Virus record (IMG/VR): IMGVR_UViG_3300042542_004076
Location: 1 to 34,306 of that record
Direction: 5' to 3' (one strand)
Length of the DNA stretch: 34,306 nt
Source: a virus
The position numbers and the translations under genes are program-made. Positions 1 through 6,402 of the stretch are shown piece after piece (the first letter of the stretch is position 1; each line of letters opens with the position of its first letter). The notes below the pieces were generated by a model, which worked only from the letters and a program-made list of their open reading frames with translations, searched no databases and was not told where the DNA came from.

Positions 1-732
1 AGTTGAAGTGATTAAGTTTGCGTGATGGAATGAATGACAGTGAATAAACTTCCCATCAACTACAAAACCCAACCTAACTGTTCCAACTCCCAACCATTCA
101 ATATCCATCCACAAAATTTGTGCTTTGCTGATATCTAATGTGACGCCAGATGGATTAAGGTGCCCAGGACCAAGCATCGTATCAATATTCCAATCTGCTT
201 GTGCTATCCTTGTTTCTGTTACAACTCCTGGAACATAAGTTCTTTCTACAAAATATAAATTACTTCCATCAAGTTCCAGATACATTCCATTATCTGCGCC
301 ATAATATCCTACTCTTTGACGAAGATTTGTTTTTGTTGGGTTGAATACAAACGTATTTAATACCTGTAATGATTTTCCTGGTTGATAAGAAAATACTTTT
401 GTGGTTTCTCTGATGATTGATGCGGTGCTTCCTACACCAACCGTCATATTAATCAAACCTTGTGCTGTTGAAAATCCAACTGTTGAACCAGTACCAACAA
501 CTAAACCACTCCAAAGATTATTATCTCTATATCTGTGCGAACTATCAAAAAGTGTTAATGGACTTGAAGTTCTTAAACGACCAAATGCATCGGTTGCTAT
601 TGGTGGAAATGTAACTGGAAATGGATTATCAATAGTAACTACTTCGCCATTCTTATTGGCAATCATATTGACTTCAAAAAGAGTTCTTTCTTGATTCAGA
701 AAGTCCTGTTCATTTTTATTAAATTGTGCCAT
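1..732 (-). CDS. Virion structural protein, partial (C-terminus beyond the left edge)
   Basis: The reading frame starts at the ATG ending at 732 and stays open for 244 codons to the window edge, so the C-terminus is missing. It opens MAQFNKNEQDFLNQE and continues through a region with TDAFGRLRTSSPLTLFDSSHRY and, near the edge, QILWMDIEWLGVGTVRLGF followed by a His-rich HCHSFHH stretch. I recall this arrangement from large structural proteins of T4-like cyanophages, but I know of no assigned role. It is the last gene here of the tightly packed late cluster: only three bases separate it from the stop of the 102-aa gene upstream. No membrane segment or signal peptide is visible. It is probably a virion surface or fibre-associated protein; that is inference from context and from the beta-rich, Gly/Thr/Ser-rich composition. 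Confidence 0.7.
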   Translation of the reverse strand, partial: MAQFNKNEQDFLNQERTLFEVNMIANKNGEVVTIDNPFPVTFPPIATDAFGRLRTSSPLTLFDSSHRYRDNNLWSGLVVGTGSTVGFSTAQGLINMTVGVGSTASIIRETTKVFSYQPGKSLQVLNTFVFNPTKTNLRQRVGYYGADNGMYLELDGSNLYFVERTYVPGVVTETRIAQADWNIDTMLGPGHLNPSGVTLDISKAQILWMDIEWLGVGTVRLGFVVDGKFIHCHSFHHANLITST

Positions 733-735
733 AAA

Positions 736-1044
736 TCAATCACTCCAAGATAATCTCTCTGGTCTGTATCGTTGTGCGTTTTTAATTCTTGAAGTATTTA
801 ACTGACTTGGATAAACATTATGAACGATTGCTCCGGGATATTCTCCCTGAAGTTGTTCGGCAAGTTCATTTTTATCCATCATTTTACCTTCAACTTCCAT
901 ACGATAAAGTCTTCCCTGCCAAACTACATCAGCAAGAAAAGACTCTTTAGTAGTTTCTGGTTGCGATGCATTCATATAAAGATTTCCGTTGAAATCACCA
1001 GCAATATTGATGCTTTCTGAAATAAACTGTTGAAATGATTTCAT
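736..1044 (-). CDS. Small probable internal head protein with T4-type capsid-targeting leader
   Basis: A 102-aa protein whose first ten residues, MKSFQQFISE, closely match the capsid-targeting sequence of T4 internal proteins (IPI and IPIII start MKTYQEFIAE, from memory). In T4 this leader directs proteins into the prohead core and is removed by the gp21 protease after an (I/L)-x-E motif. Here I-S-E at residues 8-10 offers exactly such a site. The remaining 92 residues are soluble and of mixed charge, with Trp and Arg near the end (RPERLSWSD), and I do not recognise them. The stop lies 3 nt before the next gene and the start follows the 623-aa gene by one base, so it is in the late operon beside the small terminase. 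Inference: it is packaged in the head and perhaps ejected with the DNA. The alternative is that the leader is a general cyanophage N-terminal motif with another role. Confidence 0.65.
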   Translation of the reverse strand: MKSFQQFISESINIAGDFNGNLYMNASQPETTKESFLADVVWQGRLYRMEVEGKMMDKNELAEQLQGEYPGAIVHNVYPSQLNTSRIKNAQRYRPERLSWSD

Positions 1045-1045
1045 T

Positions 1046-2917
1046 TTAGTTACAGTTCCAACGACGAAGTGCTTTATTGATTCTTGAATCTGGATCTCTT
1101 GCAGTTTTTGCAGAAGTGAGTTTATTCTTCATCCCAGACATACGACTACAAAAATTTTTACGACGACCTGCCCTTTTACCTGTTGGATTCTTTTCAGTTA
1201 CTGCCGTTTGAAGTTTTGAACCTGGATTCTCACGACGATAAGCATTCACTGCTTTTTGACTTAATCCATCAGTCTTGTCTTTACGATTGACTTTTTGCCA
1301 GTCTTCTGATAATCCAAAATCTGATCTCCAGTTTGAATATTCAACTAGATCATTTTCTGGTTCATAATGTGCAACTTGAGTAGTAGATTTTGCCTTTGCT
1401 AATGGAAGTTGGGGACCAGTTCTTTTTAGAAAAATTTCTTTTTCATTTGGATTATCTGTGCTTGTCCCTTTATTATATAATTTTTGAGTTTTTTGCAATC
1501 TTTTATGTGCTTCAGGATCGATAGGTGGCAGCATCTGCTCATCAACTCCCTGAAGTTTTCCTGCTTGTTTAAGTGCAGAAATTCTTTGAGTAGATGTCAT
1601 TTTATCCTTTCTATCTCTATCCATAATTTTTTTAACTGCAATATCAAATGGTTTTTTATCTGACATTGTACCGGTATTTGCAACCTGCTCTTTCATTTCA
1701 CCACTATCAACATAATCTGCCGCAGCATCAAGATAATCTGCTGCTTTGGTAATTTTTGATTGAACCCACGCTTCAATATTTCCCTCACCTTTCATTTTAT
1801 TACGAAGTCTCTTAGCAGCAGAGATAATTGTGGAAAGTTCTGATCTTGCCATTGAATGTTCATGATCATAAGATTCTGGAAAGTTTCCAGGATGTGGTGT
1901 ATTTGGTGTATATTTTTTGCCTAAAGTAACTGGTAAAGAATACATATCCCAGAATTTTGGTCCATACTTGCACTCTGAACGAGTCTCATCTTTTTGGCAT
2001 TTGGGGCAATATCTCATCATTGTTTGTTCCTCTTTTACTGGTACGCAATTAGGGACTATTTTTTTACCTTTCTTTTTCATACCTTCTTGCTTATATCCAT
2101 CCCAACAATCTTCTGACTTTGTTCCCCAGTTAGCAGCACCAACTTTACGACACTTAACCAGTGCTCCTGATGCATATGCACTTGGCCAAACATCATATCT
2201 AGACTTTACTTTACTATAGCAGGCATCTTTTTTACCACTACCTTTTCCTTTAATGTCTTTTTCTTCGTTCATTTTCTTTTCTGGTTTGTCGGTAGAAACA
2301 TAAGTTGGTTTTGATGCTCCAGACTTTGATTGTTGTTCTGGATCTGCCGCTTTTTTTCTTCTTGATGCAGAGCGTCTTTCTGCAGGAGTCATACTTGCTC
2401 TTTTTGCAGAAGAAACACATTTTGGAGTTCCTTCTCCAGGTTCATCACTCGCGCAAGTTCCTCCAGTTACAACATTTACCCATCCGGGTTTTCCTTCTTT
2501 TGATTTAGAATCTTGATACCACCTATGAAGATTTCCTTCTTTTACATCTTTAAATTTCTTGTGATGCTTTTTGGCATCTGCTTCCATTTTTTTCAAACGT
2601 GTATAATAATCTGGAATTTCATCAAGATGTTGAAGAGCAATGTCAGTAGCAAGATCCTTATCTTTTGTATGTTCATGCTCAATAGGAATTCCCATTTCGA
2701 GTTGCTTTTTTATAAAGGAAACTTCAAGACGATGTTTCTTTGCAATTTGCTCAACTGTTTTATGGGACTTTACTTCGTGCATTTCGTTAAATGAAGATTC
2801 TGACTTAGTTTTTTCACCTTTTTGTCTTTTTTTACGAGCAGCACAATGAGATTTCTGGGAAAATCCTTTGGGATTACTACAATCAATAGATTTTTTATAA
2901 TCCTTAGACCAACTCAT
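1046..2917 (-). CDS. 623-aa mosaic protein of basic and Cys-containing phage modules (DUF5661-like segment)
   Basis: A Lys/Arg-rich protein that reads as a string of short modules. Residues 10-31 hold a Cys-containing segment (IDCSNPKGFSQKSHCAARKKR). Residues about 52-112 resemble DUF5661 (IAKKHRLEV, HEHTKDKDLA, IALQHLDEIPDYYTRL). Residues about 144-208 are a basic module with C155 and C167 (GKPGWVNVV, ADPEQQSKSGASKPTYV). Residues 232-256 carry WPSAYASGALVKCR, and 271-291 CWDGYKQEGM to VPNCVPV. Residues 304-316 are a possible zinc ribbon (CPKC, then C316). Residues 353-404 are a helical stretch (HSMARSELSTI, AWVQSKITKAADYLDAAADY). Residues about 547-622 hold GLSQKAVNAYRRENPGSKL and RRKNFCSRMSGMK, ending RRWNCN. 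I recall each module, in other combinations, from marine phage proteins. No enzyme motif is visible. The basic character suggests nucleic-acid binding or head packaging; that is inference. Confidence 0.7.
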   Translation of the reverse strand: MSWSKDYKKSIDCSNPKGFSQKSHCAARKKRQKGEKTKSESSFNEMHEVKSHKTVEQIAKKHRLEVSFIKKQLEMGIPIEHEHTKDKDLATDIALQHLDEIPDYYTRLKKMEADAKKHHKKFKDVKEGNLHRWYQDSKSKEGKPGWVNVVTGGTCASDEPGEGTPKCVSSAKRASMTPAERRSASRRKKAADPEQQSKSGASKPTYVSTDKPEKKMNEEKDIKGKGSGKKDACYSKVKSRYDVWPSAYASGALVKCRKVGAANWGTKSEDCWDGYKQEGMKKKGKKIVPNCVPVKEEQTMMRYCPKCQKDETRSECKYGPKFWDMYSLPVTLGKKYTPNTPHPGNFPESYDHEHSMARSELSTIISAAKRLRNKMKGEGNIEAWVQSKITKAADYLDAAADYVDSGEMKEQVANTGTMSDKKPFDIAVKKIMDRDRKDKMTSTQRISALKQAGKLQGVDEQMLPPIDPEAHKRLQKTQKLYNKGTSTDNPNEKEIFLKRTGPQLPLAKAKSTTQVAHYEPENDLVEYSNWRSDFGLSEDWQKVNRKDKTDGLSQKAVNAYRRENPGSKLQTAVTEKNPTGKRAGRRKNFCSRMSGMKNKLTSAKTARDPDSRINKALRRWNCN

Positions 2918-2927
2918 AAAAATAAAA

Positions 2928-3353
2928 TTACTCTTTATTATTTAGAAAACCTTGCTTGAGTAATTTTGATAATTCCGAAGTCGATCCTACGAAGACCGCA
3001 GCATTATTTGTTACATTTGTTGTGGTTCTAGTACTATCTTCTTCAACTTCTTTTAATTTTTTCTGCAAATCAATGAGTTTATCTGTGACATCACCGACAC
3101 TTTTAATAAGTTGACCTGCAACTTCATATGCTCTTGGAGATCCACCTTCCCCCGCAAGTTCCATAATTCCATTAATTGCCTCTTGACCCTTTTCAATTAA
3201 TGAATATAAATTTGAGCGAGTATACTCATAATCTTTTTTAATATCATCTGACTTAACAGATGTGATACTTAAGTCATCTTTTATTTGTTCCACTTCAACA
3301 ATTTTACTTTCAATATTGAAAGCAGAATCCAAGTTATCATAACTAGTTGTCAT
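2928..3353 (-). CDS. 16: Small terminase subunit gp16
   Basis: A 141-aa protein matching the T4 gp16 pattern: an acidic N-terminus, then DYEYTRSNLYSLIEKGQEAI (residues about 41-60, aligning with [20 protein letters not shown] of T4), a central helical pair with SPRAYEVAGQLIKSVGDVTDKLIDL, and near the end NNAAVFVGSTSELSKLL, equivalent to NATVFMGSPTELMDEI of T4. Small terminases form an oligomeric ring that recognises phage DNA and regulates the large terminase gp17 during headful packaging. The central helices fit the oligomerisation core. It lies directly downstream of gp15 (6-nt gap), as in T4. The usual next gene, gp17, is not here; three other genes follow, so gp17 must lie beyond the left edge or elsewhere. 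Length is slightly below the 164 aa of T4. Confidence 0.88.
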   Translation of the reverse strand: MTTSYDNLDSAFNIESKIVEVEQIKDDLSITSVKSDDIKKDYEYTRSNLYSLIEKGQEAINGIMELAGEGGSPRAYEVAGQLIKSVGDVTDKLIDLQKKLKEVEEDSTRTTTNVTNNAAVFVGSTSELSKLLKQGFLNNKE

Positions 3354-3359
3354 AATGTT

Positions 3360-4157
3360 TTAAATATCCTTTTGTAGAGTAGGACTATATTCTTTGCCAT
3401 CAAAGAACATTTCTATTGATTCATTAAATCCAAAATCTTCGTATGGTTCGGCATCAATAGGATCTGGAACAACAGTATATCTCATTTCCCTCTTTGCAGT
3501 TGTAGTATCAGTATCTGCATAATAATCTACTTGAACCTTGCGTATTAAACCATCTGTAGTGTCCGCAATAGGACCAAACAAATATGTCTTTGCCGTAAAA
3601 TTAAAAGTATAAATTAAAACTCTTCTTGTAGAGAAATCTCCCTCATAATCGTCAGTAAATGATGTACTATCTAAAACGATGGGGATATCTCTCTTTTCTC
3701 CAATGGAATCTATAAAATCAACAGTCAAATTGAATGCAGGTTGGAAAAAAGGTAAGATTTGCTCAACTACCTGTAATGCATCATCTTGTATCTTCGTCAT
3801 CAAATTTAATTGAAATCCTATATTGTATGGAACTGGAAGATAAACTTTTTTTAATTTAGTTCCATCAAGTGTTTTGAATGATTGAGTTATATTTGATTTT
3901 CTTGTTGGATCATATTGGATGGTCGTCATTTCAAACGCCATTCTAGGTAAAGTCATTGCTATTGGCTTATTTAATTCTGGTTGCTGCTCAATTCTGGCCA
4001 AGAATTTTTGAATCGGACCATAAGCAAGAGGGACTTTTATCTCACTAATGGTCACATCAGAAGAATTCATATGCCTTATATGAATATTATTAAATAATGT
4101 GCCAAAAGCAATAACAGTCTTTCTTATTATTTCGTGGTAAAAATAAGTTCCTAGCAT
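3360..4157 (-). CDS. 15: Tail sheath stabiliser / tail completion protein gp15
   Basis: A 265-aa protein, close to the 272 aa of T4 gp15. It starts MLGTYFYHEIIRKTVIAFGTLFNNI, mirroring the T4 start (MFGYFYNSSFRRYATLMGDLFSNI). The hallmark central segment DDALQVVEQILPFFQPAFN (residues about 127-145) parallels DDMFQIVEQILPYFQPHFN of T4. Further on, FSTRRVLIYTFNFTAKTYLFGP and GLIRKVQVDYYAD match the conserved C-terminal half. In T4, gp15 forms a hexamer that caps the completed tail and provides the surface for head joining. The start codon overlaps the gp14 stop by one base (TGATG), which suggests translational coupling with the neck genes. Confidence 0.9.
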   Translation of the reverse strand: MLGTYFYHEIIRKTVIAFGTLFNNIHIRHMNSSDVTISEIKVPLAYGPIQKFLARIEQQPELNKPIAMTLPRMAFEMTTIQYDPTRKSNITQSFKTLDGTKLKKVYLPVPYNIGFQLNLMTKIQDDALQVVEQILPFFQPAFNLTVDFIDSIGEKRDIPIVLDSTSFTDDYEGDFSTRRVLIYTFNFTAKTYLFGPIADTTDGLIRKVQVDYYADTDTTTAKREMRYTVVPDPIDAEPYEDFGFNESIEMFFDGKEYSPTLQKDI

Positions 4158-5557
4158 CAGTAAGTACCAAATGGATTTGATTCTGAAAAATCTATAATTT
4201 GATCAGCTTCTTCTTCAATTGTTTTGTTCTCACTATATTTATCATAATTATTAAATGAATCATATGATTCTACAGCATAAGATGCGTTTGATTCCAATCC
4301 TGTAATAACTTCTCCAGGATAAAATCCTTTTACACTAACATCATCTATAATTGAAACTTTTAAAGTTTTAGTATCCAAATTCCAAGATTTAACTCTAGCC
4401 TTAGTTCCTGATCTAGATCCTAATATATTTTCATTAAATTTGAAATTAGTGACAGATGTATCAATCCCGGAAATAGATGGCGGTGATATAAAAATAGCCG
4501 GACTTGAATTATACCCCTTTCCGGCATTTGATAATAATATTGTCTCAACTCTTCCTGTAGTCGATATTGATGCTATTCCAACAGCGGTTACGCCAGTACC
4601 CAAAGAAGGTGAAGAAAATAAAATCAAAGGTTTTGATATATATCCAGAACCTTTATTAATCATAGTTATATTTGTAATACCACTCCGAACAGTTTCTATA
4701 GAACATGTCGCTGAAGCACCAACACCGCCTCCACCAGTTATTGAAATTGTGGGTGCTACAGTATATCCAGAACCAGGTCTAACTATTAATATTTCTTTAA
4801 TTGATCTAAAGGATCCAAATGATGATGTAATTGCAACTGCAGATGCATTAGTTCCACCAAAAGGTGCCGAAGATATGGATACAATTGGTGCAGAAGTATA
4901 ATTATATCCATCATTGTTTAAATAAATTTTATCAACATATCCAGTTCCTATAGATGCAGAAGCAGATGCAGGTTCTCCAGATCTAGTTAATCGCATTGTT
5001 ACAATATATCCCTCACCCTCAATTTGACTATCAATTTCATTAATTGTGGTATCTAATACTTCGTCCTCATATTCGAATAATTCACATTTTAATTGATATA
5101 CATAAAGTTTTCCAAGTTGATAGAATGGATCTTCATGTTCTATAAATTTAACTTCAAATAATCTTTGTCCCAATGGAAAATATACTAGATCACCCTCTCT
5201 TGGTCTTGATTGTAGTTCTATTTCTGGATCATTTTCATCTAAAAATGGAGAAATAAAATCTTCGTATCTTTCTCTAGAAATTACTAAATTAATTTCATCT
5301 TTTAGACTAACTCCAAATTTAGTTAATAAATCACCTTGCCCAGTATATCCATCATAATTATTTAAATACGCTTCTATTGCAAAGTTATCATTAAATTTTG
5401 ATGATGAAATTTCTTTTAATATTGTTTCCTTTCTTACAAATTTTCTTGGAATATAAATTACTTCTATTCCATAAAATTTCAATTGCTCATTAATCAACTC
5501 TTGAATGAGTCTTTGTTCATTTGGTGATCCTTGTAAAAAAAATGGATTAAGTGCCAT
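4157..5557 (-). CDS. 14: Neck protein gp14, enlarged by an inserted beta-repeat block
   Basis: The N-terminal half (MALNPFFLQGSPNEQRLIQELI, KFYGIEVIYIPRKFV, FGVSLKDEINLVISRERYEDF) and the C-terminal tail (EEEADQIIDFSESNPFGTY) are typical of the T4-family neck protein gp14, which helps gp13 make the head-tail connection. At 466 aa it is far longer than the 256 aa of T4. The excess is an insertion at residues about 205-345 with four GxGY-type repeats (NDGYNYTSAP, PGSGYTVAP, KGSGYISKP, AGKGYNSSP), each followed by a short beta-rich segment. A second module at about 350-425 has the pattern SGTKARVKSW to FYPGEVITGLES. The same repeat appears in the neighbouring gp8, gp7-type and DUF4815 proteins. 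Inference: the insertion decorates the neck surface without disturbing the core. The start overlaps the gp13 stop by one base. Confidence 0.88.
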   Translation of the reverse strand: MALNPFFLQGSPNEQRLIQELINEQLKFYGIEVIYIPRKFVRKETILKEISSSKFNDNFAIEAYLNNYDGYTGQGDLLTKFGVSLKDEINLVISRERYEDFISPFLDENDPEIELQSRPREGDLVYFPLGQRLFEVKFIEHEDPFYQLGKLYVYQLKCELFEYEDEVLDTTINEIDSQIEGEGYIVTMRLTRSGEPASASASIGTGYVDKIYLNNDGYNYTSAPIVSISSAPFGGTNASAVAITSSFGSFRSIKEILIVRPGSGYTVAPTISITGGGGVGASATCSIETVRSGITNITMINKGSGYISKPLILFSSPSLGTGVTAVGIASISTTGRVETILLSNAGKGYNSSPAIFISPPSISGIDTSVTNFKFNENILGSRSGTKARVKSWNLDTKTLKVSIIDDVSVKGFYPGEVITGLESNASYAVESYDSFNNYDKYSENKTIEEEADQIIDFSESNPFGTY

Positions 5558-6402
5558 TATCCGATAAAGTCGTAAGGTGGAAGTTCATAATCCATTGACA
5601 TTCTTTGCCTAATAAGTTCTAATTCTTTTTCAGCATCTTCATATAATTCTCTACCATTCAATTCAACTCCTCCTGGCAATTTAACACCTCTAAATTTAGA
5701 ACTTAAATTTGCTCCCCATTGACGTTTCATGAGAGCAGTTAAATATCTCTTTAAAAAACTATCATTATAGACTTTTGTAAATTCATTTGGATTTAAAAGT
5801 CTATAACAATCAATAACTATAAATGTATCTTTAGATTTTGCTCCCCAATCTATATCCAAGTATAATCTATTTTGTCTTTTATTAAATCTAATTTGTTTAT
5901 CTGGGGAAAGAAGAAAATCAATATCTTCAAGATATGTTTTAACCATAGCATATTGTAAAAGTTCTACAGAATTAAAATAATAAAGATCATTTAAAAATAA
6001 TTGATATTTTATACTCCACATTCCACCAGAAATGGAACTAGTATCAAATTTAAAGATCTTTTCAATTCCTATTACCGAATCAGGAACTTGAATAAAATTA
6101 GAATTTTCATAAAAATTAAATCCAACTGTTCCTATTCCTGAAATATTCGCGTTTGCAGTTGTAGTTACAATTCCAGTTCCATTAGAATATTTTGCCTTAC
6201 CTCTATCTATATCATCTTGTGTGATTTTGTACTTTAAGTACATTCTTTCTACACCATCAAAATGTCTTTCATTAAAGTATTGAAGAGCATCATCAACTAA
6301 ATCATCAATTTGTTCATCTGCTAAATTAATTTCCAATATTGGATGTCCAAGTTTTCTTAGACAATAATCAATCAATTCTTGTCTACTTGCGGGTTTTGCC
6401 AT
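5557..6402 (-). CDS. 13: Neck protein gp13
   Basis: A 281-aa protein with the family's conserved start RQELIDYCLRKLGHPILEINLA and IDDLVDDALQYFNERHFDG (residues about 7-51), and the conserved C-terminal half PNEFTKVYNDSFLKRYLTAL, KRQWGANLSSKFRGVKLPGG and LPPYDFIG. T4 gp13 (309 aa) joins gp14 at the head vertex after DNA packaging and makes the connector ready for tail attachment. Length and order (145-aa protein, gp13, gp14, gp15) agree with the T4 order wac, 13, 14, 15. Both junctions are one-base TAATG overlaps. No repeat insertion is seen here, unlike in gp14. Confidence 0.9.
   Translation of the reverse strand: MAKPASRQELIDYCLRKLGHPILEINLADEQIDDLVDDALQYFNERHFDGVERMYLKYKITQDDIDRGKAKYSNGTGIVTTTANANISGIGTVGFNFYENSNFIQVPDSVIGIEKIFKFDTSSISGGMWSIKYQLFLNDLYYFNSVELLQYAMVKTYLEDIDFLLSPDKQIRFNKRQNRLYLDIDWGAKSKDTFIVIDCYRLLNPNEFTKVYNDSFLKRYLTALMKRQWGANLSSKFRGVKLPGGVELNGRELYEDAEKELELIRQRMSMDYELPPYDFIG

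Follow-up and report, generated by a model that had tools for sequence, protein, structure and literature searches.

Genomic Context and Protein Family

The window analyzed here, i.e., the whole stretch of 34,306 nucleotides (IMG/VR record IMGVR_UViG_3300042542_004076), is a 34-kb virus contig from a T4-like cyanophage, in which gp13, gp14, gp15, and gp16 are encoded on the minus strand. The gene under study codes for a protein of 102 aa on the same strand. Its ATG was found at position 1044, one base past the stop codon of the upstream gene, and its own stop codon at 738-736. The N-terminus is MKSFQQFISES, which confirms the reading frame and the start MKSFQQFISE given in a preliminary description of this DNA. 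All features of the locus are collected in Table 1.

Table 1. Features at the locus of the 102-aa protein, with positions in the window.
Feature	Position	Strand	Basis
102-aa protein, phrog_1742 family, leader and small module	736..1044	-	ORF call and profile match
Capsid-targeting-type leader MKSFQQFISE, residues 1-10	1015..1044	-	Nucleotide pattern and homologue conservation
Predicted gp21 cleavage site, C-terminal to Glu10	between bases 1015 and 1014	-	T4 key positions (PMC9026906)
Residues 11-31; 11-25 highly conserved; model residues 8-31 with pLDDT <50	952..1014	-	Conservation and AlphaFold2
Beta-beta-alpha-beta module, residues 35-79, common to DUF6321/T4-GC119 virion-type proteins	808..942	-	AlphaFold2 and profile comparison
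Upstream neighbor, 623 aa, relative of the T4-GC119 family, phrog_727	1046..2917	-	DUF5661 at 56-112, DUF6321 at 546-620
Downstream gene, incomplete at the contig end, virion structural protein (phrog_1645)	1..732	-	Profile match
gp16, terminase small subunit (locus anchor)	2928..3353	-	Profile match
gp15, gp14, gp13, sheath stabilizer and neck proteins (locus anchor)	3360..6402	-	Profile match

The positional counterpart of the truncated downstream gene in the cyanophage S-SZBM1 (S-SZBM1_190) was detected in the virions of that phage. A CTAAATA sequence resembling a T4-type late promoter is located on the minus strand at 2939-2945, about 22 bases before the gene of the 623-aa protein. The gene of the 102-aa protein would share the transcript starting from this candidate promoter.

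The protein had been described as unrecognized, which is not correct. It matches phrog_1742 over its full length (E 2.5e-40, profile positions 1-106 of 108), a PHROG entry that carries the function label "unknown." Relatives were identified by tblastn in 135 phage records, all of them from cyanophages, and in hundreds of IMG/VR stretches. Neither the Pfam search nor the sequence search against solved structures resulted in a match for the 102-aa protein.

In every annotated relative inspected, the family gene is located in the gp16-gp17 interval. The gene directly before it is usually of the T4-GC119/DUF6321 type or else another small one, and a virion structural gene comes after it in most of these relatives. 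The gp21-type protease (PF03420), whose co-occurrence had been proposed as a check, was found in 18 of 18 relatives of at least 49 kb, and is likewise present in the genomes encoding T4 IPII and IPIII. The window itself is a fragment without the gp21 region.

Conservation of the N-Terminal Leader

The N-terminus had been compared to the internal-protein leader MKTYQEFIAE of phage T4. This sequence could be confirmed as the start of both T4 ipII and ipIII, and MKSFQQFISE agrees with it at positions 4, 7, 8, and 10, which supports the assignment as a T4-type capsid-targeting leader. Like IPII and IPIII, the 102-aa protein starts with ten residues carrying an aromatic residue at positions 4 and 7, an aliphatic residue at position 8 and Glu at position 10. 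Mutational work on T4 ipIII found targeting to depend mainly on residues 4 and 7, and processing on residues 8 and 10 (PMC9026906).

Leaders were counted using a nucleotide pattern for MKx[FY]xx[FY]hxE, with shuffled sequences or the reversed pattern as control. The pattern occurs far above chance. One match was found in the window compared to 0.01 expected from shuffles, 22 matches in 11 complete phage genomes compared to 1 for the reversed control, and 49 matches in 33 virus records carrying the family compared to 0 for the control. T4 ipII and ipIII were both recovered in the complete genomes.

In 88 distinct homologues, a set partly fetched by the leader pattern itself, position 4 was found to be F or Y, position 7 always F and position 10 always E. 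Position 8 is I, L, or M, the Met of 4 of the 88 homologues being outside the strict (I/L)-x-E rule, and an S follows at position 11 in 86 of 88. For the subset of 55 homologues chosen without the leader pattern, a pN/pS of 0.14 was determined for the leader and of 0.27 for the rest of the protein. Residues 11-25 are even tighter (0.10), so the leader does not stand apart as a separate element. The leader is amphipathic, with a hydrophobic moment of 0.61 compared to a shuffle mean of 0.29, and the AlphaFold2 model has a helix of low confidence at residues 4-9.

The conservation continuing through residues 11-25 would also fit an N-terminal peptide that is not a head tag. The peptide could instead dock as a helix on another phage protein, or be left over as a frozen remnant; in either case the protein would act outside the head. 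This explanation appears improbable: the conserved positions are precisely those that control targeting and processing in T4, and the gene is located among virion genes.

The same leader type was also observed in T4 gene 61.1 (54 aa, function unknown; NC_000866 18966-19130), which starts with MKTFKEFIKED and adjoins the primase gene.

Occurrence of the Leader on Other Proteins

A scan of IMG/VR with MK[ST]FxQFhxE resulted in at least 120 matching contigs. Among the matches listed, the leader-stripped proteins of at least 40 aa form 46 groups, including the phrog_1742 family, a nucleotidyltransferase, DUF5661, DUF6321, an RlpA-like domain, a GNAT acetyltransferase and an HNH nuclease. Thus, the leader can indeed be used to find further proteins, as had been suggested, and in large numbers.

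The nucleotidyltransferase starts with a leader of this type in S-SCSM1, S-SM1, and S-SZBM1, in the last of these one residue shorter. It was described as a virion protein of all three phages (S-SCSM1, PMC9602691; S-SM1, T4-GC190, PMC3037559; S-SZBM1, PMC9146016). This cyanophage NMNAT/cytidylyltransferase has an N-terminal leader of one type with the 102-aa protein, whereas it is an enzyme of approximately 360-490 aa, is detected in virions and has an unrelated mature part. A leader occurring mainly on plainly non-virion enzymes, which the preliminary description had named as contrary evidence, was therefore not seen. That this enzyme, with an identical leader type, was recovered from virions several times also speaks against a docking helix or remnant. 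Of 6 leader proteins, 3 were found in virions, compared to about 15% for the proteins overall (Fisher p 0.05). This result is weak, since the three positives are members of a single family and the totals are rough figures.

Leader-like starts were further identified in two virus contigs of 118 and 107 kb (L153 and L143), in which gp21 and gp23 were not found; this is in favor of a peptide with a function other than head targeting. The leader may extend beyond T4-type heads, or these contigs may be incomplete. In another leader-bearing virus contig (L156, 46 kb) a terminase is present, and the search for gp21 and gp23 gave no match.

Since the leader is found on many unrelated proteins, including the virion-detected nucleotidyltransferase, it is best read as a head-loading tag, and MKSFQQFISE is likely a head-targeting leader.

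Several individual leader-bearing genes were observed in addition. In the virus contigs L190, L148, L196, L141, and L229, the leader heads an RlpA-like double-psi barrel, a GNAT acetyltransferase and an HNH nuclease, and ADP-ribosyltransferase-like sequences behind the leader were recognized among these contigs by eye only. Leader-bearing ORFs with unrelated bodies are clustered in L229 (four ORFs) and L228 (two ORFs), similar to a cargo cassette. S-SZBM1_192 (L270 4629-5126), directly upstream of the phrog_1742 gene, carries MKTFKQYITE on a DUF6321 protein of 165 aa, and a similar leader-DUF6321 gene is found just downstream of the phrog_1742 gene in S-CREM1 (L029). Inside the large protein S-SZBM1_194 (L270 5253-7376), the sequence FITYREFIAEG resembles the T4 leader MKTYQEFIAE and may be a leader fused into the protein.

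Structure of the Mature Part

In the AlphaFold2 model of the 102-aa protein, residues 35-79 form a confident beta-beta-alpha-beta unit. The phrog_1742 profile matches a DUF6321/T4-GC119 protein of S-CAM9 (E 1.1e-7), and the profile-profile comparison between the phrog_1742 module and the DUF6321/T4-GC119 module resulted in a probability of 97% (E 5.5e-11). Judged from these profiles, the module is homologous to a unit inside the large T4-GC119/DUF6321 proteins. The members of the T4-GC119/DUF6321/phrog_727 family, which is encoded adjacent to the family gene, are large and consist of multiple modules, whereas the 102-aa protein consists of the leader followed by this one module. The unit was not detected in the window's own 623-aa neighbor, although this protein is a DUF5661/DUF6321 member of the large family.

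One large protein holding the module, SSCSM1_29, was identified as a virion protein of S-SCSM1 by mass spectrometry (PMC9602691). It is the upstream neighbor of SSCSM1_30, the phrog_1742 family member of this phage. Furthermore, the leader and the module are fused in one longer protein in two virus contigs (L234 and L175).

Family Members in Virion Proteomes

The family member SSCSM1_30 is not labeled as a virion protein in the S-SCSM1 record, for which 45 virion proteins were detected. S-SZBM1_191, the family member of S-SZBM1, is absent from the list of 30 virion proteins of this phage (PMC9146016). Six peptides of suitable length are expected from S-SZBM1_191, usable peptides are also expected for SSCSM1_30, and an 87-aa neighbor of S-SZBM1_191 was detected in S-SZBM1 virions. 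The virion proteomics of S-CREM1 comprises 14 proteins, few of which are named in the main text, and is too shallow for this comparison.

The T4 internal proteins are present in approximately 360 copies per virion (PMC9026906). Compared to this number, the two negative proteomes indicate that the family protein is probably not abundant in S-SCSM1 and S-SZBM1 virions. It may be present in low copy number, lost at maturation, or not packaged. The last case would again fit a protein acting outside the head.

A loss at maturation would be expected for a component of the prohead core or scaffold that is loaded by the leader, serves in assembly only and is degraded or lost before the virion is finished. 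Such a role accounts for the strong leader together with both negative proteomes, and the fixed place of the gene in the head/packaging cluster fits to it. A second (I/L)-x-E triplet, L61-A62-E63, could also be found in the protein, with L61 invariant and E63 at 94%; however, it is located inside a predicted helix and position 62 varies. Moreover, the scaffold protein gp22 and the protease gp21 were still detected in S-SZBM1 virions. An assembly-only role is possible but unlikely.

Comparison to T4 Internal Proteins and T7 Gp2

The preliminary description had proposed that the mature part is injected and acts as a host-takeover factor. The T4 internal proteins Ip1-3 are carried in the head and injected, and inhibit type IV restriction enzymes (PMC12373910), and the leader is as in T4 ipII and ipIII. 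The best PDB match of the 102-aa model is the host RNA polymerase inhibitor Gp2 of phage T7 (4lk0_M), so that binding of host RNA polymerase by a Gp2-like fold could be considered. This match is weak (Foldseek E 0.05). The superposition gave a Z of 4.6 and an rmsd of 2.3 over 49 aligned residues, and a Z below 5 is to be read against a common small fold. R56 and R58 of Gp2, located in strand 3 and essential for RNA polymerase binding (PMC3541766), pair with N76 and Y78 of the 102-aa protein in a near-ungapped pairing. The similarity to T7 Gp2 was therefore no longer taken as an indication of function. A 46-aa protein of S-SCSM1 annotated as RNA polymerase inhibitor was also considered and gave no useful link to the 102-aa family.

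The mature parts of T4 ipII and ipIII are basic (pI 9.56 and 9.65), whereas that of the 102-aa protein is acidic (pI 5.35) and slowly evolving, and no sequence relation between them was detected. Across T4 relatives, internal proteins show little conservation (PMC9026906). In contrast, the 102-aa family is conserved and fixed in the gp16-gp17 interval, within the late head/packaging cluster, which together with the acidic mature part favors an assembly or head-accessory role. The module common to a virion protein and the two virion proteomes without a homologue likewise speak against host takeover. The proposed host-takeover function is thus not supported; injection and host takeover by the 102-aa protein are unlikely on the evidence available, and a head-packaged, injected factor of this kind is quite improbable as an explanation of the gene.

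The explanation that we prefer, and to which we give about an even chance, is a low-copy accessory of the head core of a T4-like cyanophage, which is targeted by its leader and trimmed like the T4 internal proteins. The leader would form a short amphipathic helix and dock on the prohead core via Phe4 and Phe7, and gp21 would then cleave after Glu10. The resulting 92-aa product would stay in the head at low copy number, probably beside the neighboring T4-GC119-type protein, and would serve as an accessory of assembly or DNA packing and not as a specific anti-host effector.

Leader-Tagged Proteins in Marine T4-Like Phages

The literature search for the literal T4 leader sequence resulted in no paper, and no report of a capsid-targeting leader in cyanophages or marine phages was found in the open-access literature searched. 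Likewise, no leader-tagged set in T4-like phages of marine cyanobacteria has been described in these papers. We regard it as somewhat more probable than the contrary that MK[ST]Fx[QE]F[IL]xE is a general head-loading tag of marine T4-like phages and recurs on dozens of unrelated proteins, so that the packaged and possibly injected set could be listed from sequence alone. The leader on one enzyme repeatedly detected in virions, and on dozens of further families, offers a cheap and direct test of which proteins are packaged. According to the T4 precedent, the success of an infection can depend on proteins that travel in the head and are injected together with the DNA. The wider lead is the leader itself, as a likely index of the proteins packaged by marine T4-like phages.
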